The translations under genes were made by a program, and so were the position numbers. This document shows positions 2 to 29,541 of a DNA stretch of 46,223 bases, one piece after another. The DNA comes from a virus. Each line of letters opens with the position of its first letter. Positions within the stretch are counted from its first letter, which is position 1. The stretch is taken from IMG/VR virus record IMGVR_UViG_3300020420_000027, positions 1-46,223 of that record; one strand, 5' to 3'. The notes beneath the pieces were generated by a model that made no database searches, was not told the origin of the DNA, and saw nothing but the letters and a program-made list of their open reading frames with translations.

Positions 2-994
2 GATACAATGACTGTTGGAGAATTAAGTCCTAGGCAGGGTGTAGATAGAATAATGCCGGATCACTGTATTAAAAATGGTACATTGAAAAGATACAAACAT
101 AGTTTTGATCTTTCTAAAAAGGCACCTCCAATAAACACTTGGGAAGAAATATTGCATAATGCAATTAAAACAAATTGTAAAGATGGTGATATGTTGTTTT
201 TAAGTGGAGGTAGAGATTCTACTACTATTGCTAATTTTGCAATATTCAATGAAATAGACTTGGATTATGTACATATTAGCAATAGTGATGACAAGTTAGA
301 TACCCAGAGTACAAAACAATTTGAAAGTAATAATGGTATAAAAGTAAATTACTTACACCCTGATGATATAAAAGAATTTTTACCAGAGTATCATGACAAT
401 CATTGGCATGATGGTAGTTTTCGTTTTAAGTATAATGCAATGAAGACTTTAGGTAAAACACGTGGGCTTACTGGTGAATTTGGAGCAAGTGAACATGGAC
501 ATAGTAAAATTAATTATATACATCAGTGTACAGATTTAACTACTGATAAATTAGTTAACTTACATATCACAACACTTGAAGCACGTAACGATGCATCAGC
601 TACTCCTATATGGACCGATAAGGGATTTCTAAAACATGAAATAGGAAAATTACGTAAAGATGCATATGAATATATCCTAGACTATGTTGAAGACTTAATA
701 ACGTATAATTGGCAACAAGCCAATACAAAAGAACAACAACTTGAAGTTCTACTCAATATATTGAAACAGGAACATGAAAGTTATAGACTGTTTGGTTACA
801 GTCAAGACCCAGATCATACTTGGAATCATCCATTAGCTGATTGGACTTGGGCAGATATTATTATGAATACTTGTCCTATAGTTCGTAAAATTGGTAAACA
901 TGATCGTTGGGTATATAAGATGGCTACCAAAAATTGTGAATGGTTTGACGATACAGCTTGGCAATTTGGTAGACCTAGAGGAATGAGTAAATGA
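2..994 (+). CDS. Asparagine-synthase-like PP-loop ATPase (5' end probably outside window)
   Basis: The protein carries an SGGRDS signature at residues 66-71 (counting from the ATG at 8), matching the SGGxDS P-loop of the adenine-nucleotide alpha-hydrolase/PP-loop superfamily, which activates a carbonyl or amide with ATP. The first 30 residues (SPRQGVDRIMPDHC...) resemble the linker that precedes the synthetase domain of AsnB-type asparagine synthases. The frame is open to the left edge, so a glutaminase or other N-terminal domain may lie upstream. The stop overlaps the next start by ATGA. The substrate cannot be told from sequence. The + strand genes further right (SGNH, methyltransferase, radical SAM, GNAT) suggest modification of a small molecule or glycan, but that is inference. 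Confidence 0.7.
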   Translation, partial: DTMTVGELSPRQGVDRIMPDHCIKNGTLKRYKHSFDLSKKAPPINTWEEILHNAIKTNCKDGDMLFLSGGRDSTTIANFAIFNEIDLDYVHISNSDDKLDTQSTKQFESNNGIKVNYLHPDDIKEFLPEYHDNHWHDGSFRFKYNAMKTLGKTRGLTGEFGASEHGHSKINYIHQCTDLTTDKLVNLHITTLEARNDASATPIWTDKGFLKHEIGKLRKDAYEYILDYVEDLITYNWQQANTKEQQLEVLLNILKQEHESYRLFGYSQDPDHTWNHPLADWTWADIIMNTCPIVRKIGKHDRWVYKMATKNCEWFDDTAWQFGRPRGMSK

Positions 995-1503
995 GTAATC
1001 GTAAACAATGGCAAATAACCAGCGGTGATTCAATACCATCCGTTAATTTATTTAGAAGAATTATTCTTTTTGATACAGCAAAACAAGCTAAATGGTATTT
1101 AGATAATTGCTATGATCACTGGCCAAAAGTAGTCGTTATGAGTGCTGACGGTGTTTATCCAAAAAATCATACTCTTCAAAAGACAGCAAAACATAATTGG
1201 TTAAGTAATAGTGGACTAACAATATTTGTTATGGGCTGGCATAGTTTAGAAAAAATGCCTAAACCTGCAACTAAAATTGTTTTTTCATTAGATAGATTAA
1301 TTGTAGAGAGCTGTCGTGATAGAGATGATTCTATGTACAGTGAATTAATATTAGATTGGAATCCAATTAAACTTGCTCGTATCATAAGAGGGATATGTGA
1401 AACAACAAATACCAGGAATGCAGGTTTTGCATACCGAGATGTAAAAACAGATATGCACGACTTTTCTAAAGTTCCTGCGTGGCTTATTGATCTTATCAAA
1501 TAA
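991..1503 (+). CDS. Hypothetical protein, 170 aa
   Basis: I do not recognise this protein. It is soluble, with no membrane segment and no clear catalytic motif. It starts at an ATG overlapping the stop of the PP-loop gene (ATGA), so the two are probably translationally coupled. It ends at a TAA followed by a 59-nt gap holding a CTAAATA late-promoter-like box and a ribosome-binding site for the next operon. It is therefore the last gene of the upstream transcription unit. The close coupling suggests a shared task with the PP-loop enzyme, which is inference. Confidence 0.75.
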   Translation: MSNRKQWQITSGDSIPSVNLFRRIILFDTAKQAKWYLDNCYDHWPKVVVMSADGVYPKNHTLQKTAKHNWLSNSGLTIFVMGWHSLEKMPKPATKIVFSLDRLIVESCRDRDDSMYSELILDWNPIKLARIIRGICETTNTRNAGFAYRDVKTDMHDFSKVPAWLIDLIK

Positions 1504-1509
1504 TTTTAA

Positions 1510-1516
1510 CTAAATA
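1510..1516 (+). promoter_or_regulatory. T4-late-like promoter box CTAAATA
   Basis: CTAAATA lies about 47 nt upstream of the ATG at 1563, in the only real gap before the channel/transporter operon. T4-like cyanophages use CTAAATA/TATAAATA-type late boxes recognised by a gp55-like sigma factor. A purine-rich AAAAAGGAAAA ribosome-binding site follows before the ATG. Confidence 0.45.
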
Positions 1517-1562
1517 CATTACAAGAAACAAACATTAGTTAGTAAAAAGGAAAACAACTAAA

Positions 1563-2006
1563 ATGACTAGAAAATTTTTGCAATGGTGGCTTGCTTTTGT
1601 CATCCAACTATTAGCCATCTCAGGCGCCCTTTACTTTGGAGGACTTTCTTTTCTTTTGGATAACGATGTAACTTATTTGAGTTTCGTTCTTATTGCAGTA
1701 TGGTTAGTAACCAGTTTTGTAATTGGATATAAGACATATCAAGAAAAAAACACAAGTGAAACAACATGGTTCATTTCAGACTCCTGTATGACGGTAGGTA
1801 TGATAGGTACCGTTGTCGGATTTATCTATATGCTTTCAGGCAACTTTGCAGATATTAATCCAGAAGACATTAACCAAATGAGAGAAATAATTGGTGACAT
1901 GGCTACTGGTATGGGAACTGCTCTACTCACAACACTAGTTGGTCTTGTTGCTAGTTTGTTTTTAAAAATACAACTAGTTAATCAAGATGAAGAACACGGA
2001 ATTTAA
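1563..2006 (+). CDS. MotA/TolQ/ExbB-like proton channel protein
   Basis: The 147-aa protein has four predicted membrane helices (about 8-30, 37-57, 72-92, 115-138). The last two carry the family pattern: GMIGTVVGFIYML (79-91) and GMGTALLTTLVGLVA (116-130), matching the TM2/TM3 motifs of ExbB/TolQ/MotA. These proteins form the stator or motor that couples proton flow to work elsewhere in the envelope. It is shorter than ExbB (about 240 aa) and lacks the long cytoplasmic segment. It lies 3 nt upstream of an ExbD-like gene, the expected partner, and three genes upstream of an SbmA/BacA-like transporter. A motor complex in a phage is unusual. What it drives is unknown. Confidence 0.75.
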   Translation: MTRKFLQWWLAFVIQLLAISGALYFGGLSFLLDNDVTYLSFVLIAVWLVTSFVIGYKTYQEKNTSETTWFISDSCMTVGMIGTVVGFIYMLSGNFADINPEDINQMREIIGDMATGMGTALLTTLVGLVASLFLKIQLVNQDEEHGI

Positions 2007-2009
2007 TTC

Positions 2010-2660
2010 ATGAGACAGAAAAATCGTTACAATTCAGGATTGAGCCTGAATGATTTATTATTCAACGTGTTATTAGGATTTGTACTACTCTTTATAATTG
2101 CATTTCTATTAATACAACCACCAACAAAAACAGGAGATGTTCCTAGTAAAGCTGAAGTATTGATTACTTTAGAATGGGATCCAAACTCTAAAGATGATAT
2201 TGATTTGTGGGTGCAACAAGATGATTTCCCACCAATTGGATATAGTAACAAAGGTACTCAAGCAGTACATTTAGATAGAGATGATTTAGGTTCAAGTAAT
2301 GATACAGTAATGGTTAATGGTAAACCTGAAGTAATTAAAATTAATAGAGAGATTGTTACAATACGTGGGGTTGTATCTGGTGATTATTATATTGGAGTTC
2401 ATGCATATAATTTAAAAGGTACTCTAGATGTGACCGTTATGGTAATGGACGTAAATCCTTTATTTAAAGAATACTATAAGAAAACAGTAACTCTAAATGG
2501 AAGAGGAGATAAAATAAATCTTCCAGGGTTTACGTTGGATAGTACAGGTCGAATTACAGATGTATGGGCTCACAGTAGAGATTTAGGACCAAGAAAGAAA
2601 ATAGAGTATGATGACGCAATTACCAGACACAACAACAGTTTAGGAGTATCAGGACCATGA
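2010..2660 (+). CDS. ExbD/TolR/MotB-like protein with periplasmic DUF2135-like beta domain
   Basis: A single N-terminal membrane helix (about 17-36) is preceded by an Asp at residue 15 in the pattern LNDLLFNVLLGF, resembling the N-terminal helix of ExbD/TolR/MotB, where a conserved Asp carries protons. The remaining ~175 residues should be periplasmic. They contain LITLEWDPNS...DDIDLWV (51-68) and, later, a GDYYIGVHAY segment, a pattern I associate with DUF2135-type beta-sandwich domains (LxWD...DxDLxV). Fusion of an ExbD-like anchor to such a domain is not the textbook ExbD architecture. The gene follows the ExbB-like gene by 3 nt, and its stop overlaps the next start (ATGA). Confidence 0.65.
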   Translation: MRQKNRYNSGLSLNDLLFNVLLGFVLLFIIAFLLIQPPTKTGDVPSKAEVLITLEWDPNSKDDIDLWVQQDDFPPIGYSNKGTQAVHLDRDDLGSSNDTVMVNGKPEVIKINREIVTIRGVVSGDYYIGVHAYNLKGTLDVTVMVMDVNPLFKEYYKKTVTLNGRGDKINLPGFTLDSTGRITDVWAHSRDLGPRKKIEYDDAITRHNNSLGVSGP

Positions 2661-3175
2661 TATATTATTACATTGATTTCTTTACCAATATAAGCATAGC
2701 ATTAATTGTTCTCATAAGTATATTTTCATTATATGCAATTATCCTTTCCAATAAACATAGACTAATAACGTTTTTTCTTGTACCTACAATTATTATAACA
2801 GCAATTATGGCATCTTCAACAATATATTCTTTACAAGGAACACCCAAAACTCAAATTCCATTTGAAAAAAATATTGAAATAGTAGCAGTTGATGTACGAA
2901 AACCTTTGGTATTCATGTTAGCTATAGACCTTGATTCAGGCAGTCTTGAACCCAAGTACTATGCCTTTCCATATACAAAACAAAGAGCAAGAGTAATGCA
3001 AAATATTATGCATCGTGGAAAGTTGAATATGAGTAAAAAAGGAAGAATAGAACTAATGGATGGAGATAGAGGGGGCAATGAATTCGCTGAAGGTGATATA
3101 TATTTTGTTCCATTAAAATCTCCCCCACCCCCACCAAAAAATAAAGATACCCAAAATAACTTTTTGGGACATTAA
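2657..3175 (+). CDS. Membrane protein, 172 aa, with proline-rich C-terminus
   Basis: Two closely spaced hydrophobic helices (about residues 9-30 and 37-58) are followed by a soluble domain of about 100 residues and a proline stretch (SPPPPPKN) near the C-terminus. I do not recognise the family. The ATG overlaps the stop of the ExbD-like gene, and the next gene (SbmA-like) starts 9 nt downstream behind an AAGGAG site. It therefore sits inside the channel/transporter operon and is probably a third subunit of the same envelope complex, which is inference from position only. Confidence 0.75.
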   Translation: MIYYYIDFFTNISIALIVLISIFSLYAIILSNKHRLITFFLVPTIIITAIMASSTIYSLQGTPKTQIPFEKNIEIVAVDVRKPLVFMLAIDLDSGSLEPKYYAFPYTKQRARVMQNIMHRGKLNMSKKGRIELMDGDRGGNEFAEGDIYFVPLKSPPPPPKNKDTQNNFLGH

Positions 3176-3184
3176 GGAGAAAAT

Positions 3185-4156
3185 ATGTTTAGATTTTTTA
3201 CAACCAGAAAATGGTTGTTATGGGCATGGCTCGGATCAGTAGCCATCCTCTCATCACTTTGGATTCAAGTAGAAATTGACGTAAAGATAAATGAATGGTT
3301 TGGTCAGTTTTACGATATGATTCAAAAAGCTCTGGCATCACCTAATGCAATTACAATAGGAGAATACTGGGCTAGTTTATTCAGTTTTATATATCTAGCA
3401 GGTATATATGTTGCAATAGCAGTAGTGGTAAGTTATTTTACTGCTCACTTTTTATTCCGTTGGAGAACAGCAATGGTTGAGTGGTATCACTCTGTATATG
3501 ATAAAGCACGTAAAATTGAAGGTGCGGCTCAACGTGTTCAGGAAGATACAATTAAATTTACAAGAATTATGGAAGGACTAGGTACAAGTTTTATTGAAAG
3601 TATAATGGTACTTGTACAATTTGTTCCTATTCTATTTGGTTTAAGTATTGGTATTCCAATTTTCTTCTTTGGAGATTGGGAATATGGATTGATAACCGGT
3701 GCAATAGTTTGGTCAGTAGGTGGTACATTATTCTTAATTTTACTAGGCTGGTTACTTAGACTAGTAGGAGTAGAATACGATTTACAGAAAAAAGAAGCGG
3801 CTTATCGTAAAATATTAGTCATAGCAGAAGATGATGAAAATGTAAGACCAAAAACAATTAATGAATTATTTGATGATGTTCGTTCAATTCATTTTTTAAG
3901 TTACATTAGATATCTATATTTTAACGTTGGTAGAATAGCTTATCTTCAAGCTAATGTTTTATCAGCATATGTATTCCTTGCACCTGCCATTGTCGCTGGT
4001 GTTGTAACACTTGGTGTTATGCAACAGATTATCAGAGCATTTGGTCGTGTAGAAGGATCTATGCAATATCTATTAAAAGCATGGCCAACAATTATTGAAT
4101 TAATGAGTGTTTACAAGCGTCTTAGAGAATTTGAACGTCAAATTCAACAAAAATAA
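3185..4156 (+). CDS. SbmA/BacA-like peptide transporter
   Basis: The 323-aa protein matches the SbmA/BacA family over its length. Family hallmarks include FRWRTAM (91-97), EGAAQRVQEDT (112-122), the KKEAAYRK...EDDENVRP region, the later YIRYLYFNVGRIAYLQ segment, and the C-terminal YLLKAWPTIIELMSVYKRLREFE. SbmA/BacA are inner-membrane, proton-driven importers of peptides and related compounds. Compared with E. coli SbmA (406 aa) it lacks about 80 N-terminal residues but covers the family domain. Start: strong AAGGAG site 5 nt before the ATG. It is the last gene of the ExbB/ExbD-like operon. Possible roles are altering host uptake of peptides or vitamins during infection, or blocking peptide toxins. 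None of these can be read from sequence. Confidence 0.88.
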   Translation: MFRFFTTRKWLLWAWLGSVAILSSLWIQVEIDVKINEWFGQFYDMIQKALASPNAITIGEYWASLFSFIYLAGIYVAIAVVVSYFTAHFLFRWRTAMVEWYHSVYDKARKIEGAAQRVQEDTIKFTRIMEGLGTSFIESIMVLVQFVPILFGLSIGIPIFFFGDWEYGLITGAIVWSVGGTLFLILLGWLLRLVGVEYDLQKKEAAYRKILVIAEDDENVRPKTINELFDDVRSIHFLSYIRYLYFNVGRIAYLQANVLSAYVFLAPAIVAGVVTLGVMQQIIRAFGRVEGSMQYLLKAWPTIIELMSVYKRLREFERQIQQK

Positions 4157-4159
4157 CAA

Positions 4160-4188
4160 TTGACACCAATTCTATAGTATGCTATATT
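4160..4188 (+). promoter_or_regulatory. Sigma70-like promoter TTGACA-17-TATATT
   Basis: TTGACA at 4160-4165 and TATATT at 4183-4188 are separated by 17 bp. The start of transcription would fall near 4195, leaving about 29 nt before the ATG at 4224, which has an AGGAG site. The spacer holds a TATAG...CTATA inverted repeat, unlike the GTAAGA operator seen elsewhere. Confidence 0.7.
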
Positions 4189-4223
4189 ATTAGAAACAGC
4201 CATGTAAAACAGGAGATTGGCAA

Positions 4224-4421
4224 ATGGAACTGATCAGCACATATTGGTCAGTGGATAAAAAAAGACGTGCAGATATAGTACACACGTCAAAAGGATTTGA
4301 AGTAGCTCTTTATGAAAATGATGAGTATATGTATAATGTTACGGTACATGAACATAGTGAAGTCTATGCAGAAAGTGCCGCAGAAAATTTTGTAAATTAT
4401 ATAGGATCCTGGAATGATTAA
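4224..4421 (+). CDS. Hypothetical protein, 65 aa
   Basis: This is a small acidic soluble protein beginning MELISTYWSVDKKRRADIV, of a kind often seen in T4-like marine phages, but I cannot name a family. It is the first gene after a clear sigma70-like promoter (4160-4188) and has an ACAGGAG site 7 nt before the ATG, so early expression is likely. Confidence 0.7.
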   Translation: MELISTYWSVDKKRRADIVHTSKGFEVALYENDEYMYNVTVHEHSEVYAESAAENFVNYIGSWND

Positions 4422-4447
4422 TGGAGCAATGAGGCACTAAACAATCT

Positions 4448-4909
4448 ATGTCAAACTTTAACGAATTAGCGGAGGCTTTAAACCGTATGACGGAAGAACA
4501 ATCTTCAAAAGCGAAAAAAATTAACGAAAAACGAAACACCAAATGGTGGAACAATCTTTCAAGTGACGATAAATTGGAAGCCGTATATGCAGTGATCTCT
4601 AGGGTCGCTAAAGCATACGACCATGACGTTAACTATAGAGACCTATTATATAAGGAATTAAAACTTGAGCCAACGGCGTATAACGCCACTAGAGATGCAG
4701 GATTATTTGATCTACTAGAAGTACTCAAGGATGCTGATTACCTTGATGATTTACATAATGTAGAACGTTTAGAAGTCGTTGATGACGAAGGGCGTGCCTA
4801 TGTTAAAGGTAAAAACAAGGTTAAGGAAGTACATTATGTACTTCAAGACGATAAGAAGACCCTAAAAATATTCATCAATACGGAGGTTCCAGATGAAGGT
4901 ACACATTAA
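4448..4909 (+). CDS. Hypothetical protein, 153 aa
   Basis: This is a charged, mostly helical soluble protein with no motif I recognise. The 3' end overlaps the next start by 17 nt (4893..4909), and the overlap contains the next gene's GGAGG ribosome-binding site, so the two genes are coupled. Confidence 0.75.
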   Translation: MSNFNELAEALNRMTEEQSSKAKKINEKRNTKWWNNLSSDDKLEAVYAVISRVAKAYDHDVNYRDLLYKELKLEPTAYNATRDAGLFDLLEVLKDADYLDDLHNVERLEVVDDEGRAYVKGKNKVKEVHYVLQDDKKTLKIFINTEVPDEGTH

Positions 4910-5360
4910 AAATTATCCAGACGAAGATAGTATTTCATATAAATTAGGACTTTATACTCAACAGAAAGTTGACGTAAGGATTGATAAATGGGATACCTGG
5001 AGTTTGGACGAAACCCTAGCACATATTATTCACCCTGCTCTAGTACAACTTAAAAATAGTGTGGAAAGTTATCCAGGAGATAAAGAACTTGATATAGATG
5101 CTCCTATTAATCTTGAAACAGATGAAGATCGTTGGCAATGGATATTAGGTGAAATGATATTTGCGTTTAAATCAAAACTATATGATTGGGGAGAAGAGTT
5201 TACTAGTGGTGAACTTGACTATAATATTGTTAATGACGAATTAGTAAAAGGACCTAATAATACTTTTAAAATTGATCAAAAAGCAATGAAAGAATGTCAA
5301 GCCCGTATAGCAAATGGTTTTAGATTATTTGGAAAGTATTACGAACATCTTTGGGATTAA
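4893..5360 (+). CDS. Conserved phage hypothetical protein, 155 aa
   Basis: The pattern is familiar from many phage genomes: KVDVRIDKWDTWSLDETLAHIIHPAL, then ...DRWQWILGEMIFAF, and the C-terminal NGFRLFGKYYEHLWD. The protein family has no established function that I know of. The GGAGG site upstream lies inside the preceding gene. The stop is 1 nt before the next ATG. Confidence 0.8.
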   Translation: MKVHIKNYPDEDSISYKLGLYTQQKVDVRIDKWDTWSLDETLAHIIHPALVQLKNSVESYPGDKELDIDAPINLETDEDRWQWILGEMIFAFKSKLYDWGEEFTSGELDYNIVNDELVKGPNNTFKIDQKAMKECQARIANGFRLFGKYYEHLWD

Positions 5361-5361
5361 C

Positions 5362-5715
5362 ATGGATAGCGAATTAAAAAGATTAAAGAAAGTCGAAAAA
5401 GAGTATAATAAATTATCAGATCAAGCTTCAACCTTAGAAGAAAAAATTGAAAATGTGGTTGCTGGAAAAGTTACTCCTTTATACGATAGATCTTGGTATA
5501 TTAAATGGATAGCAAGTTTTTGTATTTTAATTGGAGTATTATGTCGTTCAGTAGATGAAGTTCCAAAAATTTATGATATAGTCTTTAGTGCGTTTGGTAC
5601 AGCCGGTTGGTTTTGGGTCGGTATGTTATGGAAAGACAGAGCTCTCATAATGCTGAATGCGGTTTTATGTTTCATTTTATTAATGGGCATTGTTAGATTT
5701 TTATTCACAATATAG
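5362..5715 (+). CDS. Membrane protein with N-terminal coiled coil, 117 aa
   Basis: The first ~35 residues are a charged coiled-coil-like helix (heptad pattern with many K/E). It is followed by two or three hydrophobic segments in the C-terminal half (around residues 50-65, 72-85 and 95-115). I chose the ATG at 5362, directly after the upstream stop, rather than 5314, which would overlap the previous gene by 47 nt without a ribosome-binding site. Membrane topology fits a small inner-membrane protein. Function unknown. Confidence 0.7.
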   Translation: MDSELKRLKKVEKEYNKLSDQASTLEEKIENVVAGKVTPLYDRSWYIKWIASFCILIGVLCRSVDEVPKIYDIVFSAFGTAGWFWVGMLWKDRALIMLNAVLCFILLMGIVRFLFTI

Positions 5716-5716
5716 T

Positions 5717-6691
5717 ATGGAAAATAATAATATAAGAATAGTTTGTTTAGGAAGTAGTCATACTGAAGGCGGTTCATCTGCGGCTGGCATACCAAAAGAC
5801 TTTGAAAATAGTTGGCCAGGAAAATTACAGGAACAAACAGGATATGATATTCTTAATGCTGGTGAAGCAAGTTATAGTATAGATTTTTGGCCTACTAAAT
5901 TACTAAACGTAATTGATTATTATAAGCCCACACATCTAATAATGGAAATTAATCGTCCAGAGAAACTGGACGTTGAAATAAGTCGTGATCTAACAGAAAA
6001 ATCACCACAAGATGCTAAAGATTATCATCCTTTACTAACTAGACAAAATATTACAAGTGCAACAGATAAAACAAATCAGAGATACTGGCCTTTTAGAACA
6101 AGTGTAAGTAATAGTGAAGCAATAGATTATTATACTATTTTTAATAAATTAAATAGAGAAGATGTTGAAGAATATTATAATGGTAACTTTCCAAAGGCTG
6201 TAGGTGATGCATATAATGAATTGGCTGATGGTGTAATTACAGATATTGAAAAAAGCTGGGTAGCTGATAAACTAAATGAGATTGTTGAAGGAATGGGCGG
6301 TCACAAAAAAGATTTAGATTTATTGATTAATTATCTATATTTTAGAGCAGTATATTATGCTGGTAGCGATCAAGATATGGCTAATTATTTTCAAAATATT
6401 AATCATATGAAAATGATATGTGATGTAAATAACATTAAGATGTATTGTTTTACTATGCATAAAAAGGAATGGTTAGATAATCAGATATACAAGGATAATT
6501 ATAAAAAGTTATGGAAAGATATTTGGTTATTTAACGATATAAATTTTCGGCTCAAAGGATGGGTTCAGGAAAGATTTAGTGACAAATACAAAGATACTCT
6601 GTGTGATTCCATACATTATTATCCATGGGTATGGGAGATCTGGTGTAAAGAAATGTTAGTTCCTTGGGTAAATACAGAGTGGGAAAAATAA
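5717..6691 (+). CDS. SGNH/GDSL-hydrolase-like protein
   Basis: The N-terminus has a block-I-like motif IVCLGSSHTEGG with the candidate nucleophile Ser at residue 13 or 14. The C-terminus has a DxxH pair (D297, H300 in DSIHYY) that fits block V of SGNH hydrolases. The middle half (about 100-290) is divergent. SGNH enzymes act as esterases or acyl-transferases on lipids, glycans or peptides. The start at 5717 is just behind the previous stop. It heads a tight run with a methyltransferase, a radical SAM protein and a GNAT acetyltransferase, suggesting a joint modification pathway, which is inference. Two further SGNH-like proteins occur at 20175..20765 and 30277..30861. Confidence 0.65.
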   Translation: MENNNIRIVCLGSSHTEGGSSAAGIPKDFENSWPGKLQEQTGYDILNAGEASYSIDFWPTKLLNVIDYYKPTHLIMEINRPEKLDVEISRDLTEKSPQDAKDYHPLLTRQNITSATDKTNQRYWPFRTSVSNSEAIDYYTIFNKLNREDVEEYYNGNFPKAVGDAYNELADGVITDIEKSWVADKLNEIVEGMGGHKKDLDLLINYLYFRAVYYAGSDQDMANYFQNINHMKMICDVNNIKMYCFTMHKKEWLDNQIYKDNYKKLWKDIWLFNDINFRLKGWVQERFSDKYKDTLCDSIHYYPWVWEIWCKEMLVPWVNTEWEK

Positions 6692-7441
6692 ATGATTAGA
6701 TTAAACAGAAAAATTATTCCAGATTTGGCAAAGTTTATCGAGATGAGATACGATGTTAAAATCCATGATAACAAACATCCTGAGATTATGAAATCTTTTT
6801 TAAGATTACAATATTGGCTAAATGAAGAAATACTAGCAAGATACTTCCAATATAATGACGAAGGTAAAGAAGAAGGTGTATACTGGAAACAACAACTTCA
6901 ATTTGACACAAGAAAAACTGGGCAACGACTAAAAGACAAACTTCAAAAAATGATTGATGAAAATCCTGATACTAAAATTTTAGATCTTGGTTGTGGGGAT
7001 AACGATTGGAAAGATCGATTAGGTGATAATGTTTTTGGTGTTGATCCATATAATGAAAAAGCAGATGCAAACGTACATATGAGAAATATAGTAAAGAATG
7101 ACGGTAAATGGGACGTTGTATTATGCTTAGGTAGTATTAACTTTGGTGATGAAGAATCAATTAAAGCTGACCTTGCTAAAGCAGTACATTTATGTAAACC
7201 AAAAGGAACACTGATATTTCGCTTAAATCCAGGAATAACACATGATACTCAATATGCAAAATGGGTAGACTTTTTTGAATGGGACGAAGATAAAATTAAA
7301 GAATATGCAGACCATTTAAAATGTGACATTGTTGAAATGGATTGGGATCATGAAGAAAATGGTCAATCAATTCGTTGGGGCAATAGACATTATGTTGAAT
7401 GGAGAAAGCGAGGCGGTTTAAGAGGTGTGGAAAAAGTTTAA
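6692..7441 (+). CDS. SAM-dependent class I methyltransferase
   Basis: Motif I is ILDLGCGDNDW at residues 96-106, followed by the acidic end of beta-2 in VFGVDPY (114-120). Motif IV-like VVLCLGSINFGD and a post-motif CKPKGTLIFRLN complete a Rossmann methyltransferase core. The N-terminal 90 residues are helical and may bind substrate. The ATG follows the SGNH stop directly, and the 3' end overlaps the radical SAM gene by 17 nt. The acceptor substrate cannot be deduced. Confidence 0.85.
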   Translation: MIRLNRKIIPDLAKFIEMRYDVKIHDNKHPEIMKSFLRLQYWLNEEILARYFQYNDEGKEEGVYWKQQLQFDTRKTGQRLKDKLQKMIDENPDTKILDLGCGDNDWKDRLGDNVFGVDPYNEKADANVHMRNIVKNDGKWDVVLCLGSINFGDEESIKADLAKAVHLCKPKGTLIFRLNPGITHDTQYAKWVDFFEWDEDKIKEYADHLKCDIVEMDWDHEENGQSIRWGNRHYVEWRKRGGLRGVEKV

Positions 7442-8075
7442 GAGTATTGATTTTTGTATAACCAGCTATTGTCAAGCAAAATGTCCTAGCTGTCCTAGAA
7501 CAGATCCGAATAAAGAAGGCTATCCTAAAGCGGCTTGGTTACCATTAGTACACGTTGATTTTAAAAATTGGACCAATGTTTTACAAGGACAAGATTGGAA
7601 AGATCATACTTTCGTTTTTTGTGGTGAACATGGTGATCCAATGATGCACCCAGACATTACAGACTTCGTAAAATACGGATACGATAACGCCAATATAATT
7701 CATATACATACAAATGGCGGACTTAGACAGCCAACATGGTATACAGAAATGGCTGAACTATATGGCAAAAAATTATTCATAACATTTAGTATAGACGGAC
7801 TATCTCAAGAAACAAGTGAGAAATATCGAATAGGAGTTAACTGGAAACGATCATGGGATAATATGATTGCTTTTAGAAACCAGTTAGAAAAAGAAGATAG
7901 ACTTGGTAAGTTAGTTTGGGATTATATTGTATTTGAACATAACTGGCATGAAATACCAGATGTAGTTAAACAAGCAAAAGAATTAGACATAAGATTACGT
8001 ATGAAATTAAATACAGGTATCTTTGGTAAATTAACATCAAAAGAAGGGTTGGATTTATTTAATGAATACGTGTAG
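7425..8075 (+). CDS. Radical SAM protein, core domain (split from SPASM-like C-terminus)
   Basis: The [4Fe-4S]/SAM motif CQAKCPSC has Cys at 16, 20 and 23 (CxxxCxxC). Further core features are a GEHGDPMMHPDI segment (the GGEP-like position), IIHIHTNGG and FSIDGL. The start is a GTG inside the methyltransferase gene, with a GAGG site about 12 nt upstream. The frame stops at 8075, just before a region encoding a Cys-rich SPASM-like tail in the +1 frame (8062..8391). In most relatives core and tail are a single protein, so this is either a real two-gene arrangement, a programmed +1 shift, or an assembly indel. The chemistry is unknown. Confidence 0.82.
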   Translation: MWKKFKSIDFCITSYCQAKCPSCPRTDPNKEGYPKAAWLPLVHVDFKNWTNVLQGQDWKDHTFVFCGEHGDPMMHPDITDFVKYGYDNANIIHIHTNGGLRQPTWYTEMAELYGKKLFITFSIDGLSQETSEKYRIGVNWKRSWDNMIAFRNQLEKEDRLGKLVWDYIVFEHNWHEIPDVVKQAKELDIRLRMKLNTGIFGKLTSKEGLDLFNEYV

Positions 8076-8391
8076 AGTAGATTGCAGTGCATTAGAAAAT
8101 CAGGAAGTTGATGTAGACTTTAATTTAAAAGTCTGGCCCTGTTGTATTATGCAAAATCAATATGCTGAATATGGAAAAGTAGGTGATGATTATATTGATA
8201 ATCTACCAAAAGATTGGAATCAACTAGGAACAAAAACATGGAAACAAATACTAGAACACCCTGTATTCAAAGAATATTTAACACAAAAGATTTGGAATAG
8301 CAATAAATGTTCTCCAGTATGTGCCAAATTTTGTGGCAAAGAAGGATTTATGAATTATGACGTCAAAGAATTTTTACCTCAAAAGGATTAA
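8062..8391 (+). CDS. SPASM-like Cys-rich C-terminal domain of radical SAM enzyme (separate frame)
   Basis: The 109-aa frame has DCSALENQEVDVDF and VWPCC followed by CSPVCAKFC: the spacing of an auxiliary Fe-S cluster (SPASM-like) domain that normally follows the radical SAM core. It overlaps the core gene by 14 nt in the +1 frame. The ATG at 8062 lacks a good ribosome-binding site, so expression could rely on termination-reinitiation or frameshifting. The 3' end overlaps the acetyltransferase gene by 35 nt. As a stand-alone protein it would have no radical SAM core, so it must act with the product of 7425..8075. Confidence 0.7.
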   Translation: MNTCRVDCSALENQEVDVDFNLKVWPCCIMQNQYAEYGKVGDDYIDNLPKDWNQLGTKTWKQILEHPVFKEYLTQKIWNSNKCSPVCAKFCGKEGFMNYDVKEFLPQKD

Positions 8392-9052
8392 TTTTGAACA
8401 GATAACACCTATCTGGAATATACTATGGAAAGATAGAAAACAAGAACCTTTCAGTTCAATGACAATGAAAGGAACATTTGATTCAAAAATTAAAGATCTA
8501 TATAAATTTAGTGCCTTTGGAGTATATGAAAGTGGTAAACTAATAGGAGTGAACGCAGGGCATAAGTCTGGGCAACTAGAATATCGTACACGTGGTCTAT
8601 GGGTCGCACAGGACTATAGAGGTAATGGCGTAGCTCAAATGTTATTTGCTAAACTGGAAGAACAAGCTAAAGCAGAAGGTGCTCGTTGGCTATGGAGTTT
8701 TCCTAGATTAAGTAGTTTACCAGCATATATAAGAGCTGGTTATAATTCATATGGAGATCCTGAGAAAGCAGAGTATGAGCAGAATGTTAGAGCTAAAAAG
8801 GATTTAAGTATTGTTACAACTGTTACATTTAGAGAAGGACAGTTAGATAAAAAGTTTGAAGATGAAATTGAAGTTCTAGAACGTCAGCATAAATTACTAG
8901 GACAAAATACTGAAGTAAGAAATGGAATAAATCATGTAACTCAGCATTGGTGTAATGATCATTACATTATGTGGAAGTCAGAAAGAAAAGGATTACCTAA
9001 ACCTGCAACAATGATTGTTGGTGATTTAGATAATCCTAATCACGTTTTATAA
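8357..9052 (+). CDS. GNAT family N-acetyltransferase
   Basis: The acetyl-CoA-binding motif A is visible: RGLWVAQDYRGNGVAQMLFAKLEEQA, with the R/Q-x-x-G-x-G/A loop in DYRGNGVAQ (86-94), followed by LPAYIRAGY (motif B-like). The last 100 residues are an extension of unknown role. It is the last gene of the + strand cluster. Its stop codon lies within the 3' strand of the P1 helix of the RNase P-like RNA encoded on the opposite strand, so the two transcription units converge with no spacer. Confidence 0.82.
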   Translation: MTSKNFYLKRINFEQITPIWNILWKDRKQEPFSSMTMKGTFDSKIKDLYKFSAFGVYESGKLIGVNAGHKSGQLEYRTRGLWVAQDYRGNGVAQMLFAKLEEQAKAEGARWLWSFPRLSSLPAYIRAGYNSYGDPEKAEYEQNVRAKKDLSIVTTVTFREGQLDKKFEDEIEVLERQHKLLGQNTEVRNGINHVTQHWCNDHYIMWKSERKGLPKPATMIVGDLDNPNHVL

Positions 9053-9204
9053 TAATCTATAACCCGGATTCTGTATTAGATTATCATTTACCTTAGCGTC
9101 CTACCCGTTGTCCTGACAGTCGTTAACAACCTATTTGGACTTGCACATATCTGCCTGTGTCCGGTGTTTCCTCAGTTACCTGCGATAATCTGATTATTAT
9201 AAAA
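9045..9204 (-). ncRNA. rnpB: Minimal RNase P RNA lacking the specificity domain
   Basis: Read 9204 to 9045, the sequence follows the bacterial RNase P RNA core in order. P1 is a perfect 13-bp helix (9204-9192 with 9057-9045). P2 is a perfect 8-bp helix AGAUUAUC/GAUAAUCU (9191-9184 with 9085-9078). P3 is only CAG-GUAA-CUG (9182-9173). CR-I is GAGGAAACACCGG; P4 pairs AAC-(A)-CCGGA (9168-9160) with UCCGGGUU (9068-9061). P5 is CACA/UGUG (9159-9156 with 9147-9144), closing an 8-nt loop where E. coli has the whole S domain. Next come GCAAGUCCAAAUAGG, a P15-like hairpin (9130-9126 with 9111-9107), CGGGUAGGACGCU, and CR-V ACAGAAUCCGGGUUAU. P18 is absent. The bulged nucleotide in P4, almost always U in bacteria (U69), is A here. 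The probable role is tRNA 5' maturation during infection. It begins 2 nt after a 37-aa ORF's stop and has no visible promoter of its own, so it is probably processed from the upstream - strand mRNA. Confidence 0.93.
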
Positions 9205-9206
9205 TT

Positions 9207-9320
9207 CTATAATTCTTTCCACCAAAGATAGACGAGTAGTATAATACCGCAGACTCCTACGATACCTAAAACTTCCCAATCTGTCAATAGTAAACTTTCG
9301 TATGTATAACGGTGTTCCAT
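9207..9320 (-). CDS. Small single-pass membrane protein, 37 aa
   Basis: The ATG at 9320 has an AAAGGAT ribosome-binding site at proper spacing and encodes a peptide with one hydrophobic helix (about residues 18-33, VLGIVGVCGIILLVYLWW). It starts 3 nt after the stop of the upstream metallopeptidase gene. Its stop is 2 nt before the first nucleotide of the RNase P RNA P1 helix. Function unknown. The tight fit argues for cotranscription with both neighbours. Confidence 0.65.
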   Translation of the reverse strand: MEHRYTYESLLLTDWEVLGIVGVCGIILLVYLWWKEL

Positions 9321-9323
9321 TTC

Positions 9324-9773
9324 TTATCCTTTATCTTGAGCCCAATCAGCATCGGCATAGCCAGCTTCTTTAGCCCAACGTACAAATAATCCTACTTCAC
9401 GCCCATGAGCCTCAATTTCCCAGGGGGTATCCCAATAAGCAACTTTTTTAGGACTATAGGTTTTGCCACGCCATATAAAACCATCGCCTGTAAGTTCACG
9501 TCTTGCATACTGTTTCACATGAACCACTTCGTGTGCAACAGTTTCTAGCAATCTGCGAAGACTCTGCTTCTTATATAGCTCGACTTCAAATTCACGATTA
9601 GTATTAGCCAAACACTGGCCTAAACAATCGTCCTCTAATTTAGATTTTAGGATAAATTCAACGTCCAAAGTACGAATCTTTGGCATTAATTGTTTGATTG
9701 AATACAAGGCAATACTCTTGACCAACTCTCGTTGTTTCTTATTGCCACCTTTTACGTCAACGATATTTGTCAA
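9324..9773 (-). CDS. SprT-like zinc metallopeptidase
   Basis: The zinc-binding HEVVH motif is at residues 81-85, in LLETVAHEVVHVKQYA. A third ligand is probably Glu121 or His123 in PWEIEAHGREVG. The fold and size (149 aa) fit the SprT-like/gluzincin proteins common in T4-like cyanophages. It would cleave a protein substrate, but which one is unknown. It has an AGGAG site upstream and a CTAAATA late-type box 19 nt before the ATG. Confidence 0.75.
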   Translation of the reverse strand: MTNIVDVKGGNKKQRELVKSIALYSIKQLMPKIRTLDVEFILKSKLEDDCLGQCLANTNREFEVELYKKQSLRRLLETVAHEVVHVKQYARRELTGDGFIWRGKTYSPKKVAYWDTPWEIEAHGREVGLFVRWAKEAGYADADWAQDKG

Positions 9774-11599: not shown

Positions 11600-12247
11600 T
11601 TAAGTATATCTTTCAAATCCCCAATACCTTTCTTTACAAAACCAACAAGTACCACAATGTTTACTGAAGTCATTTGTATATTCTTCACAACTCCTTGTTA
11701 GTGGAAATAATGTTTCCATTACTCCCAATGTATTGTATAATTCGGCTACACCTTTCTTATCAATGTTTATTAATGGTCGAAAACTTTTAAACTCAACTGT
11801 TGGACGTAATTCTTTACCTGCATTACGATCATCAGCAGGACCAAAATCCCAATGATCAATTACTTCACTTGGAGGATTTTTTGTAATGCCAACATAGTGA
11901 CATTGTATTTTTTTACTTAGATATAAACTTTTAACTAAATTCCTTTGGGTAGAATCATATTGTGAAGCTTCTGGACAGTGTCTTACATGATGTTCACCAA
12001 ATATATTTCCAAACACATCTGTTAAATGTTTAATGACACTTTTTGCAAATGGTTCTTGAAATTCTTTATCTTGATGATTAACAGTAATTGGAATAATAGT
12101 TATATCTTTACGTTCTTCTGAAACATACTTCGACAACATATAGGCAACTATAGCACTATCGGTGCCGCCACTTATTTTAAGACCAACTTGTTTAAAGTTA
12201 GTGGGTAAATCAATTGTAATATCTTGCTGACTATTTTTAATAATCAT
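11600..12247 (-). CDS. queC: QueC-like PP-loop enzyme (7-cyano-7-deazaguanine synthase-like)
   Basis: An ATP-binding SGGTDS motif is at residues 26-31. The C-terminus has four cysteines, C187, C198, C201 and C204, in CEEY...HCGTCWFCKER, matching the zinc site of QueC. QueC converts carboxydeazaguanine to preQ0 with ATP and ammonia. Length (215 aa) fits QueC (about 230). A QueD-like gene lies at 29020..29541. QueE and FolE are not seen here, unless the radical SAM gene plays the former role. In phages preQ0 is used either for DNA modification or tRNA queuosine. It could also be another PP-loop enzyme of the same superfamily. Confidence 0.75.
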   Translation of the reverse strand: MIIKNSQQDITIDLPTNFKQVGLKISGGTDSAIVAYMLSKYVSEERKDITIIPITVNHQDKEFQEPFAKSVIKHLTDVFGNIFGEHHVRHCPEASQYDSTQRNLVKSLYLSKKIQCHYVGITKNPPSEVIDHWDFGPADDRNAGKELRPTVEFKSFRPLINIDKKGVAELYNTLGVMETLFPLTRSCEEYTNDFSKHCGTCWFCKERYWGFERYT

Positions 12248-12257
12248 ATATTGGCTC

Positions 12258-13697
12258 CTAGCCTACACTGCCTTCTAATGTGACTTCTAGTAATTTGTTT
12301 GCTTCAACTGCAAATTCCATTGGTAACTTGCTTACAACTTCTTTAACAAATCCGTTAACAATTAAATTCATTGCTTGTTCTTCATTTAGTCCACGTTGTC
12401 TTAAATAGAATAACATCTCTTCTGAAACTTTCGATGTTGTAGCTTCATGATTTAAAGATGCCCGTGAACCGCTTTGTTCAATATATGGTACAGTATTAGC
12501 TGAACATTTATCACCAATTAACATACTATCACATTGTGTAAAGTTTTTAGATTGGCTGTTTCCAGCACGACTGTTCATTTTTACTAAACCTCTATATGTT
12601 TGTTTTCCTTGTTTTGCACTAATACCCTTTGATACAATCGTTGATGTAGTATTTTTACCCAAGTGTATCATTTTTGTTCCTGTATCTGCTTGTTGTCTAT
12701 TTGTAGATACGGCAACTGAATAAAATTCACCAGTTGATTCGTCACCTTTTAAAATACAACTAGGATATTTCCAAGTGACTGCTGATCCTGTTTCAACCTG
12801 TGTCCAAGTAATTCTACTTTTATAACCTTTACATAATCCTCTTTTAGTAACAAAATTATATACTCCACCTTTACCTGTTTCAGGATCTCCTGGATACCAA
12901 TTTTGTACTGTTGAATATTTTACTTCTGCTCTTTCTTTAGCAACAATTTCTACACAGGCGGCGTGTAATTGATTTTCATCTCTAGCTGGTGCCGTACAGC
13001 CTTCTAAATAACTTACATAAGCATCGTCTTCACATACAATTAATGTTCTTTCAAACTGTCCTGTATTTGCTTGATTAATTCTAAAGTATGTGCTGAGCTC
13101 CATAGGGCATCTAACACCCTTTGGAATATAACAAAAAGAACCATCTGTAAATACTGCTGAATTTAAACAAGCGAAGAAGTTATCTCCGTATGGTATAACC
13201 GTACCTAAATATTTTTTAACTAAATCAGGATGCTCTTGTACTGCTTCACCAAATGATGAAAATATAACTCCTACCTTTTCTAAATCCTTTTTAAACGTTG
13301 TTGCTACTGATACACTATCAAATACTGCATCAACTGCTACACCTGCCAAGGCCGCTTGTTCCTGTGTTGGAATACCTAGTTTCTCAAATGTTGCTAGTAC
13401 TTCAGGATCAACTTCGTCCATTGATTTTAATTTTGGTTTTGGTGCTGAATAATATGATATAGCTTGGTAATCAATTGGCTCAATATCTAAATCTGCCCAG
13501 TTAGGCATTTCCATTGTTTTCCAACGTGCGAATGCTTTTAATCTCCAGTCTAATAACCATTGTGGTTCTTTTTTAAACTTGGATATTCTTTCTACTACTG
13601 ACTCGTCCAGACCTGGAGGTAGTGTAAAAGATTCAACGTTTGTAGTGAATCCTTGTTCGTATTCTTTCGCTAGGTGTTGATCTAATGCTTGAGCCAT
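12258..13697 (-). CDS. sufB: SufB, Fe-S cluster assembly scaffold protein
   Basis: The 479-aa protein matches SufB end to end: [14 protein letters not shown] near the N-terminus, the beta-helix core with [20 protein letters not shown] and [15 protein letters not shown], and the C-terminal [11 protein letters not shown]...[11 protein letters not shown]...LEGSVG. The Cys in [14 protein letters not shown] corresponds to the conserved assembly-site cysteine of SufB. SufB normally works as SufBC2D with SufC ATPase and SufD. Neither is in this window, so the phage protein may plug into the host complex. Related genes (sufE, nfu, A-type carrier, sufT) follow at 19.8-28.7 kb. It starts 10 nt after the stop of a small membrane protein gene. 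Confidence 0.96.
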
Positions 13698-29019: not shown

Positions 29020-29541
29020 CTAACATCCTTGTTCGGTTAAATCATACATATCCATTGGATCACTTGCATCTGATTCAACAATTTTTTGAACTGAAAACGG
29101 AGTATAGATAGCACTATTGGCTCCATGTTCTGAGCATTCAACCTGCTCAACCCAACAACGTCCTTCTGACGCATCTCTAACAAGTTTGTCAGCAAAGTCA
29201 AAGGCGTGTTTTGCAAATTTTTCTACACCAACACCATTAAACTCTACTACTTCACATAAGTCTTTTTCTTGTAAATTATAAAACTCTTGTTTATGTGGAT
29301 CATTAACATCTATACAAGTTTTGTGATCAAAGTGATCTTCGAGCCACTTCTTTAAAGGTTTTAAACCGCCAAAGTCTACTGCCCAATTTTTGTTATCTAA
29401 TTCATTACAACCAAATGTAAACTTAAATGCAAGGCTGTAACCATGTAGCAAATGACAATGTGAATGATCAGCATTAGGTTGTCTAAATACTGCACTCAAT
29501 CCAATGTTATGCCCATATGTTTTTGTACTATAAAAAGCCAT
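29020..29541 (-). CDS. queD: QueD-like 6-pyruvoyl-tetrahydropterin synthase family enzyme
   Basis: The zinc and catalytic motifs are present: DHSHCHLLHGYSLAFKF (His28, His30 and His33 region), AVDFGGLKPLKKWLEDHFDHKT (compare V.DF..lk..v...lDH), and the late VEQVECSEHGANSA segment with the Glu of the family. QueD makes 6-carboxytetrahydropterin on the way to preQ0. With the QueC-like enzyme at 11600 it gives two steps of the 7-deazaguanine pathway. It is slightly longer (173 aa) than host QueD (about 120). It is driven by a TTGACA-17-TATTAT promoter. Confidence 0.88.
   Translation of the reverse strand: MAFYSTKTYGHNIGLSAVFRQPNADHSHCHLLHGYSLAFKFTFGCNELDNKNWAVDFGGLKPLKKWLEDHFDHKTCIDVNDPHKQEFYNLQEKDLCEVVEFNGVGVEKFAKHAFDFADKLVRDASEGRCWVEQVECSEHGANSAIYTPFSVQKIVESDASDPMDMYDLTEQGC

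Follow-up and report, generated by a model that had tools for sequence, protein, structure and literature searches.

A catalytic-domain-only class A RNase P RNA on a phage contig

The minus strand of a marine phage contig carries, at 9204-9045, a class A RNase P RNA of about 160 nt that has no specificity (S) domain. RNase P is the RNA enzyme that trims tRNAs, and it is among the oldest ribozymes. The contig is a linear IMG/VR record of 46,223 bp with a GC content of 0.33, analysed at its full length and called the window here. By its sequence, the RNA is of the class A RNase P type, encoded by the phage and cut down to the catalytic domain: the class A model match, P4, the core helices and L15 were all found, and two class A features are missing, namely the S domain and the U in the P4 bulge.

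An earlier note on this DNA had described an S-less bacterial-type RNase P RNA on the minus strand of a phage genome, and had proposed a search of the reverse strand with an RNase P covariance model. Both the description and the search hold up. Rfam RF00010 matched positions 9201-9044 (minus strand) with 79.4 bits (E=3.7e-26 in a single-family search of this record), and all core pairs form. The same 79.4 bits were obtained when a 701-bp local stretch was compared with all 4227 Rfam families (E=2.4e-24), the E-value for RF00010 on the whole window was 1.6e-22, and the best clan member in cmscan was the bacterial class A model, not the archaeal one. The gathering score of RF00010, its curated cut-off, is 100 bits. 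The RNA scores below this value because 158 model positions are missing, and a default Rfam scan or routine annotation thus lists nothing; the cut-off hides RNAs of this kind. In the RF00010 alignment these 158 positions, which make up the S domain, are replaced by 8 nt, the 24 positions around P18 are replaced by 0 nt, and P3 is down to 10 nt.

P1 to P5, CR-I, P15/P16 and CR-V can be read directly in the sequence, in the right order and on the right strand, as first reported. All of the following elements lie on the minus strand. P1 is formed by UUUUAUAAUAAUC (9192-9204) and GAUUAUUAUAAAA (9045-9057), which give 13 bp when read from the sequence; 11 of these pairs are counted in the comparative alignment A1 described below, where all are formed and 5 are changed on both sides. 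P2 joins AGAUUAUC (9184-9191) to GAUAAUCU (9078-9085) over 8 bp by sequence, while the Rfam alignment has 7 and assigns the eighth A to P1. A minimal P3 of 10 nt, CAG-GUAA-CUG (9173-9182), is of the same size as in two RNAs from other phage contigs, L223 and L224. CR-I, GAGGAAACACCGG (9173-9161), together with the 5' strand of P4 covers 9160-9173 (P4 strand 9168-9160), and CR-V, ACAGAAUCCGGGUUAU, together with the 3' strand covers 9061-9074 (P4 strand 9068-9061), as placed by the Rfam alignment and A1. The P4 pseudoknot formed by CR-I and CR-V has 8 of 8 bp and one bulge, at 9165, where the base is A.

The P5 hairpin, CACA-GGCAGAUA-UGUG (9144-9159), has an 8-nt loop in the place of the S domain (P7-P14). 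These 8 nt compare with 94-180 nt between the P5 strands of ten other RNase P RNAs, and the contrast in size that had been pointed out, as well as the loss of P18, with 0 nt for its 24 model positions, is therefore confirmed. Positions 9098-9140 hold P15 (GUCC/GGAC), P16 (GUUGU/ACAAC), AAAUAG and the L15 GGGU (from the sequence; A1 columns 62-105), and the region after P5 also carries GCAAGUCCAAAUAGG. The L15 segment CGGGUAGG and GCAAG, with the J5/15 adenosines, are both present, and both are invariant columns of A1; the L15 GGU/GGGU, which is the element that pairs with the tRNA 3' RCCA, is kept. The P17 stem and P18 are absent from the RNA, and all other helices of the catalytic core are present.

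A P6-like pairing is possible at the site of P6 and of the 'P6-mimic' interaction: GGCAG in the P5 loop (9155-9151) could pair with CUGUC in the P16 loop (9115-9119) over 5 bp, one of them G-U, although five pairs also arise in 7-10% of trials with shuffled loops. In engineered C-domain RNAs, the comparable pairing of P6 type joins the P5 region to the P17 loop, and the 'P6-mimic' aids the activity of the E. coli C domain (PMC5839562). Minimum-free-energy folding gives nothing remarkable for this RNA by itself (z=-2.05) and misses P2, since P2 and P4 make a pseudoknot; it is the comparative evidence that counts.

For this comparison, the window RNA was aligned over 159 columns with ten other class A RNAs from IMG/VR contigs, three of which lie beside prophages or host DNA and seven of which come from viral contigs (alignment A1). 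Over all rows, 96.3% of cells pair and 34 of 42 pairs have two-sided changes, with such compensation in every helix; the covariation score, 0.81, falls to 0.11 or less when the partners are slid. The ten other rows were trimmed to the common core and the window RNA was read untrimmed, so that its own pairings carry the weight. In it, all 42 tested pairs of P1-P5, P15 and P16 form (34 of 34 in P1, P2, P3, P5, P15 and P16), and relative to the commonest pair of the ten others there are 19 two-sided changes, none that is one-sided and none that breaks a pair; five of its pair types are found in no other sequence of A1. P4 is 100% paired in all 11 sequences, with two-sided changes at 5 of its 8 pairs, and in the window RNA 3 of the 8 are changed on both sides with respect to the commonest pair of the others. 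The covariation of P1, P2, P4 and P5 that the earlier note had asked for is thus seen, in a comparison with RNase P RNAs that all contain an S domain. Of 51 columns invariant in the ten others, 47 are kept by the window RNA, the four exceptions being the P4 bulge, a single position in J18/2 and the two halves of a P1 pair that has changed with compensation.

A fold in which 42 pairs form, and in which 19 changes are two-sided and none one-sided, indicates selection and not decay; judged by base pairing, the RNA is no pseudogene. That this RNA stems from the decay of a host gene copy, or from an artefact of metagenome assembly, is accordingly very improbable. The RNA is a singleton, one universally conserved base is changed and the contig comes without a coverage figure, all of which would suit such an origin, but a pairing record without a broken pair is the opposite of decay, and a decayed copy was rejected on this ground. 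Moreover, P3, the S domain, P17 and P18 have been reduced separately and in a structurally neat manner, which a single assembly join or deletion could not produce, and genes on both flanks recur in related phage contigs, which shows that the locus is not host contamination.

The flanking genes concerned are those at 4893-5360 and 5314-5715 on the left, together with genes on the right. The RNA lies between a plus-strand block (2-9052) and a minus-strand block (9324-46223), of which it is the last element. A few nucleotides downstream of P1, on the same strand, a terminator-like hairpin (9037-8989) is followed by the T-tract TTTTCTTTC, the whole feature covering 8980-9037. The hairpin has 15+6 bp, and its 57-nt fold has an energy of -21.4 kcal/mol (z=-6.6; 0 of 200 shuffles were as good). 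A simple terminator scan omits it because the rule allows loops of 3-8 nt and the stem has an internal loop. It sits inside the 3' coding end of a converging gene on the opposite strand, a GNAT acetyltransferase gene (8357-9052, plus strand; PF00583, 1.1e-9) whose 3' end overlaps both the RNA and the hairpin. Among the viral contigs that matched the peptide patterns of this GNAT-like protein, used as an anchor for synteny, no relative of it was confirmed. Upstream of the RNA, a consensus scan gave a promoter-like TTGACA-17-TATCGT (9259-9287, minus strand; 10/12), which is weak evidence. A 37-codon open reading frame for a membrane-peptide-like product (9207-9320, minus strand) has its stop codon just before P1, and the next gene upstream is SprT-like, for a putative metalloprotease (9324-9773, minus strand; phrog_10499, 2e-21; PF10263, E=1e-3, below the cut-off).

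The window contains genes for a T4-like DNA polymerase (phrog_262, E=1e-205) and clamp loader (phrog_168). The polymerase shares 65-74% identity with its counterparts on many other viral contigs and less than 60% with those of isolated phages, the nearest of which are jumbo phages and include Sinorhizobium phage Phosso and Agrobacterium phage Atu_ph07. The T4-like genes and the kinship of the polymerase to jumbo phages suggest that the window derives from a large T4-like phage, most of whose genome is probably missing from these 46 kb. There is no tRNA gene in the 46-kb fragment or in the loci of 36 relatives, and no RnpA gene in the fragment.

The P4 bulge departs from all comparators. The bacterial CR-I GAGGAAAGUCCGG reads GAGGAAACACCGG here ('GUCCGG' to 'CACCGG'). 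At E. coli position 68 there is C for G, with a compensating G in CR-V, and at the bulge itself, which is kept (9165, equivalent to E. coli U69; A1 column 37), there is A. All 60 bacterial RNAs in which the position could be placed, nearly all of them from Pseudomonadota and Bacteroidota, have U as the bulged base, as is the case in all ten other RNAs of A1, including the 7 of 7 from other phage contigs. Neither the position-68 change nor the U69-to-A change figured in the earlier, sequence-only reading. The bulged U of P4 has been called universally conserved, and its O4 coordinates a catalytic metal (PMC12710915, PMC9433436). In the E. coli holoenzyme, U69A has no effect on the binding of substrate and slows the cleavage step about 10-fold (from 0.017 to 0.0013 per second in a table of PMC11221534, the abstract of which gives more than 500-fold for U69 substitution), and with the RNA alone at high salt the loss is only about five-fold (PMC11221534). 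Since U69A is about 10-fold slower with normal binding in E. coli, A69 is by E. coli standards a handicap and not proof of inactivity.

The same data bring in the main alternative to an active enzyme, because U69A separates binding from catalysis: the RNA could be a decoy or inhibitor that titrates host RnpA or pre-tRNA and slows the maturation of host tRNAs during infection. In this reading, the surfaces that bind RnpA, the acceptor stem and RCCA are kept in the RNA and the metal site would be crippled by the U69-to-A change, which in the E. coli holoenzyme leaves binding unchanged and takes catalysis down about 10-fold (PMC11221534); on a model substrate, a further loss of about 100-fold comes with removal of the S domain (PMC5839562), and there are no phage tRNAs nearby to call for processing. 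We nevertheless regard this as unlikely. P4, CR-I and CR-V are otherwise kept (47 of 51 invariant positions), which is beyond the needs of an RnpA sponge; U69A is slow and not dead; and an S-less RNA binds pre-tRNA more weakly, which would make it a poor decoy.

The reading that we favour, with moderate confidence, is that of a working phage RNase P RNA consisting of the C domain only, which would form a hybrid enzyme with host RnpA and cleave acceptor-stem substrates. It would be read from the minus strand, at the end of the minus-strand gene block, with the transcript ending at the hairpin at 9037-8989, and would assemble with host RnpA, the protein that binds the catalytic domain. The hybrid enzyme would then cleave on the 5' side of a substrate made of an acceptor stem plus RCCA, with no contact to a T-loop, and would fall short of the host enzyme in both speed and selectivity. 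Candidate substrates are pre-tRNAs, of the phage or of its host, and small stem-loop RNAs, for example pre-4.5S; with no tRNA genes in the fragment or in the loci of the 36 relatives, phage substrates are not evident. In favour of a working enzyme are also the terminator-like hairpin directly behind P1 and the RNase P RNAs that other phage contigs keep inside tRNA arrays; against it stand the A at the catalytic-metal bulge, which is seen in no other RNA examined, and the absence of an RnpA gene from the fragment. A more specific proposal, possible but doubtful in our view, is that a C-domain-only RNase P with an altered metal site (A69) and host RnpA has been retargeted to other RNA stems, away from tRNA elbows, or throttles the maturation of host tRNAs.

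It is also conceivable, if quite improbable, that the RNA belongs to a processing enzyme for some phage or host stem-loop RNA and not for tRNA, with A69 as an adaptation. Since the elbow of the tRNA is what the S domain reads, loss of this domain fits a substrate other than tRNA, as would the lack of tRNAs in the fragment, and S-less RNase P cleaves small hairpins and pre-4.5S in vitro (PMC11143913; PMC5839562). However, J5/15 and the L15 GGU that reads RCCA are intact, which fits ordinary tRNA 3' ends, and no candidate substrate of this kind was identified.

Studies on engineered RNAs bear directly on the favoured reading of a working C-domain enzyme. An E. coli C-domain RNA with no S domain, no P18 and a mini P3 retains activity in vitro, whether or not the C5 protein is present; it is about 100-fold slower on a model substrate, and after removal of the S domain the further loss of P18 has little effect (PMC5839562). 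E. coli RNA with the S domain deleted, combined with protein, cleaved pre-4.5S and not a pre-tRNA, and later C-domain constructs cleave pre-tRNAs at lower affinity (PMC11143913). The window RNA shares with E. coli M1 and class A RNAs in general (RF00010) P1-P5, P15, P16, CR-I, CR-V, J5/15 and the L15 GGU, and differs from them in its S domain (8 versus 94-180 nt), in having no P17 stem and no P18, in a minimal P3 and in A for U69. It resembles the constructs Eco CP RPR and CP RPRdelP18P3Mini (PMC5839562), which lack the S domain and P18 and have a minimised P3. In contrast to these, it is natural and phage-borne, has also lost the P17 stem and has A69. It is thus a natural counterpart of the C-domain-only bacterial RNAs studied as laboratory constructs, in which evolution has made the same trims as engineering (no S domain, no P18, a minimal P3) and has added A69. 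If active, it would be a natural RNase P that functions without S domain and without U69, and a small enzyme with which to probe the need for both; if inactive, it would point to a way in which phages attack or steer the maturation of host tRNAs. In models of RNase P origin, the catalytic domain came first and the specificity domain was added later (PMC12974513).

Natural loss of most of the S domain is known for the type T/P RNAs of Pyrobaculum and other Thermoproteaceae (cited in PMC12974513, PMC4919922). These archaeal RNAs and the window RNA have in common that most of the specificity domain has been lost and that P18 is absent; unlike the archaeal RNAs, which work with archaeal proteins, the window RNA has the bacterial P15-P16/L15 layout and fits best to bacterial class A. 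An archaeal type T identity was rejected on the grounds that the bacterial class A model fits best and that the contig is that of a T4-like phage. Strong reduction is also known in fungal mitochondrial RNase P RNAs (Seif et al. 2003, as cited in PMC10352661), where it likewise surrounds a kept P1-P4 core; unlike the phage RNA, these RNAs are organellar and have different protein partners. Some ascomycete mitochondrial RNAs lack P2 (PMC12974513), which the phage RNA keeps.

The earlier note had proposed to look for the same fold in related marine phage contigs. No second S-less copy was found in any collection searched, although near-identical records could have escaped the tools, so the claim rests on one sequence. 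The suggestion that no bacterial-type RNA this small has been described stands within these collections; fungal mitochondrial RNase P RNAs of similar size are known. An exact pattern of the S-less motif gave 0 matches in IMG/VR, and an S-less pattern gave 41 in 84,980 genomes, none with an RNase P context. Two other patterns able to match S-less forms in IMG/VR returned L002, rejected as a high-GC chance match without Rfam support, and 16 matches that were likewise set aside as chance; a further such pattern gave 40 stretches, of which only L143, L154 and L155, all three already known, are RNase P RNAs. A pattern with no limit on the size of the S domain found 18 RNase P RNAs in IMG/VR, all of which have the domain. 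RF00010 had no match in 50 records of DNA polymerase relatives, and a purpose-built S-less covariance model, run on 1.0 Mb of relatives' loci and the 50 whole records, returned only the window RNA and S-containing RNAs. Neither the RNA nor the first 25 kb of the window had a blastn match in 50,697 phage records, and among seven annotated records (six polymerase-related jumbo phages and one SufB match) an RNase P RNA was present only in MW495066.

These searches indicate that RNase P RNAs are more widespread on phage contigs; no report of a phage-encoded RNase P RNA was found in a full-text search of the open-licence literature. Seven of them, L219-L225, lie on IMG/VR contigs of 20-169 kb inside tRNA arrays (for example L219:1501-1814 and L221:1501-1830). 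Around viral-contig RNase P RNAs there are up to 27 tRNAs per 15-kb stretch, with tmRNA in some (L144, L157), and phage-type ligase genes are also present with L144 and L153. L219-L225 share with the window RNA that they are class A RNase P RNAs on viral contigs, and two of them, L223 and L224, have the 10-nt P3; unlike the window RNA, they sit among tRNA genes and keep the bulged U69 as well as an S domain, albeit a reduced one of 94-137 nt between the P5 strands. Their P4 differs from that of bacteria with compensation, and L224 and L225 have short connections at the P18 site and no full P18. In architecture these RNAs could plausibly be intermediates, with no claim of ancestry.

Some further observations concern the surrounding records. 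MW495066.1, filed as 'Microcystis phage MaAM05', carries a full-length RNase P RNA (251.8 bits; L232, L233) together with sufB, and is perhaps not a phage but a bacterial contig. The window has a SufB gene of its own (12258-13697), 63% identical to a record filed as Microcystis phage. Other host-like genes in the phage fragment encode an SbmA/BacA-like transporter (3185-4156; PF05992, 2.7e-139), a MotA/TolQ/ExbB-like protein (1563-2006), a QueC-like protein (11600-12247) and a PTPS-family protein (29020-29541), the last two of which could belong to a 7-deazaguanine pathway.
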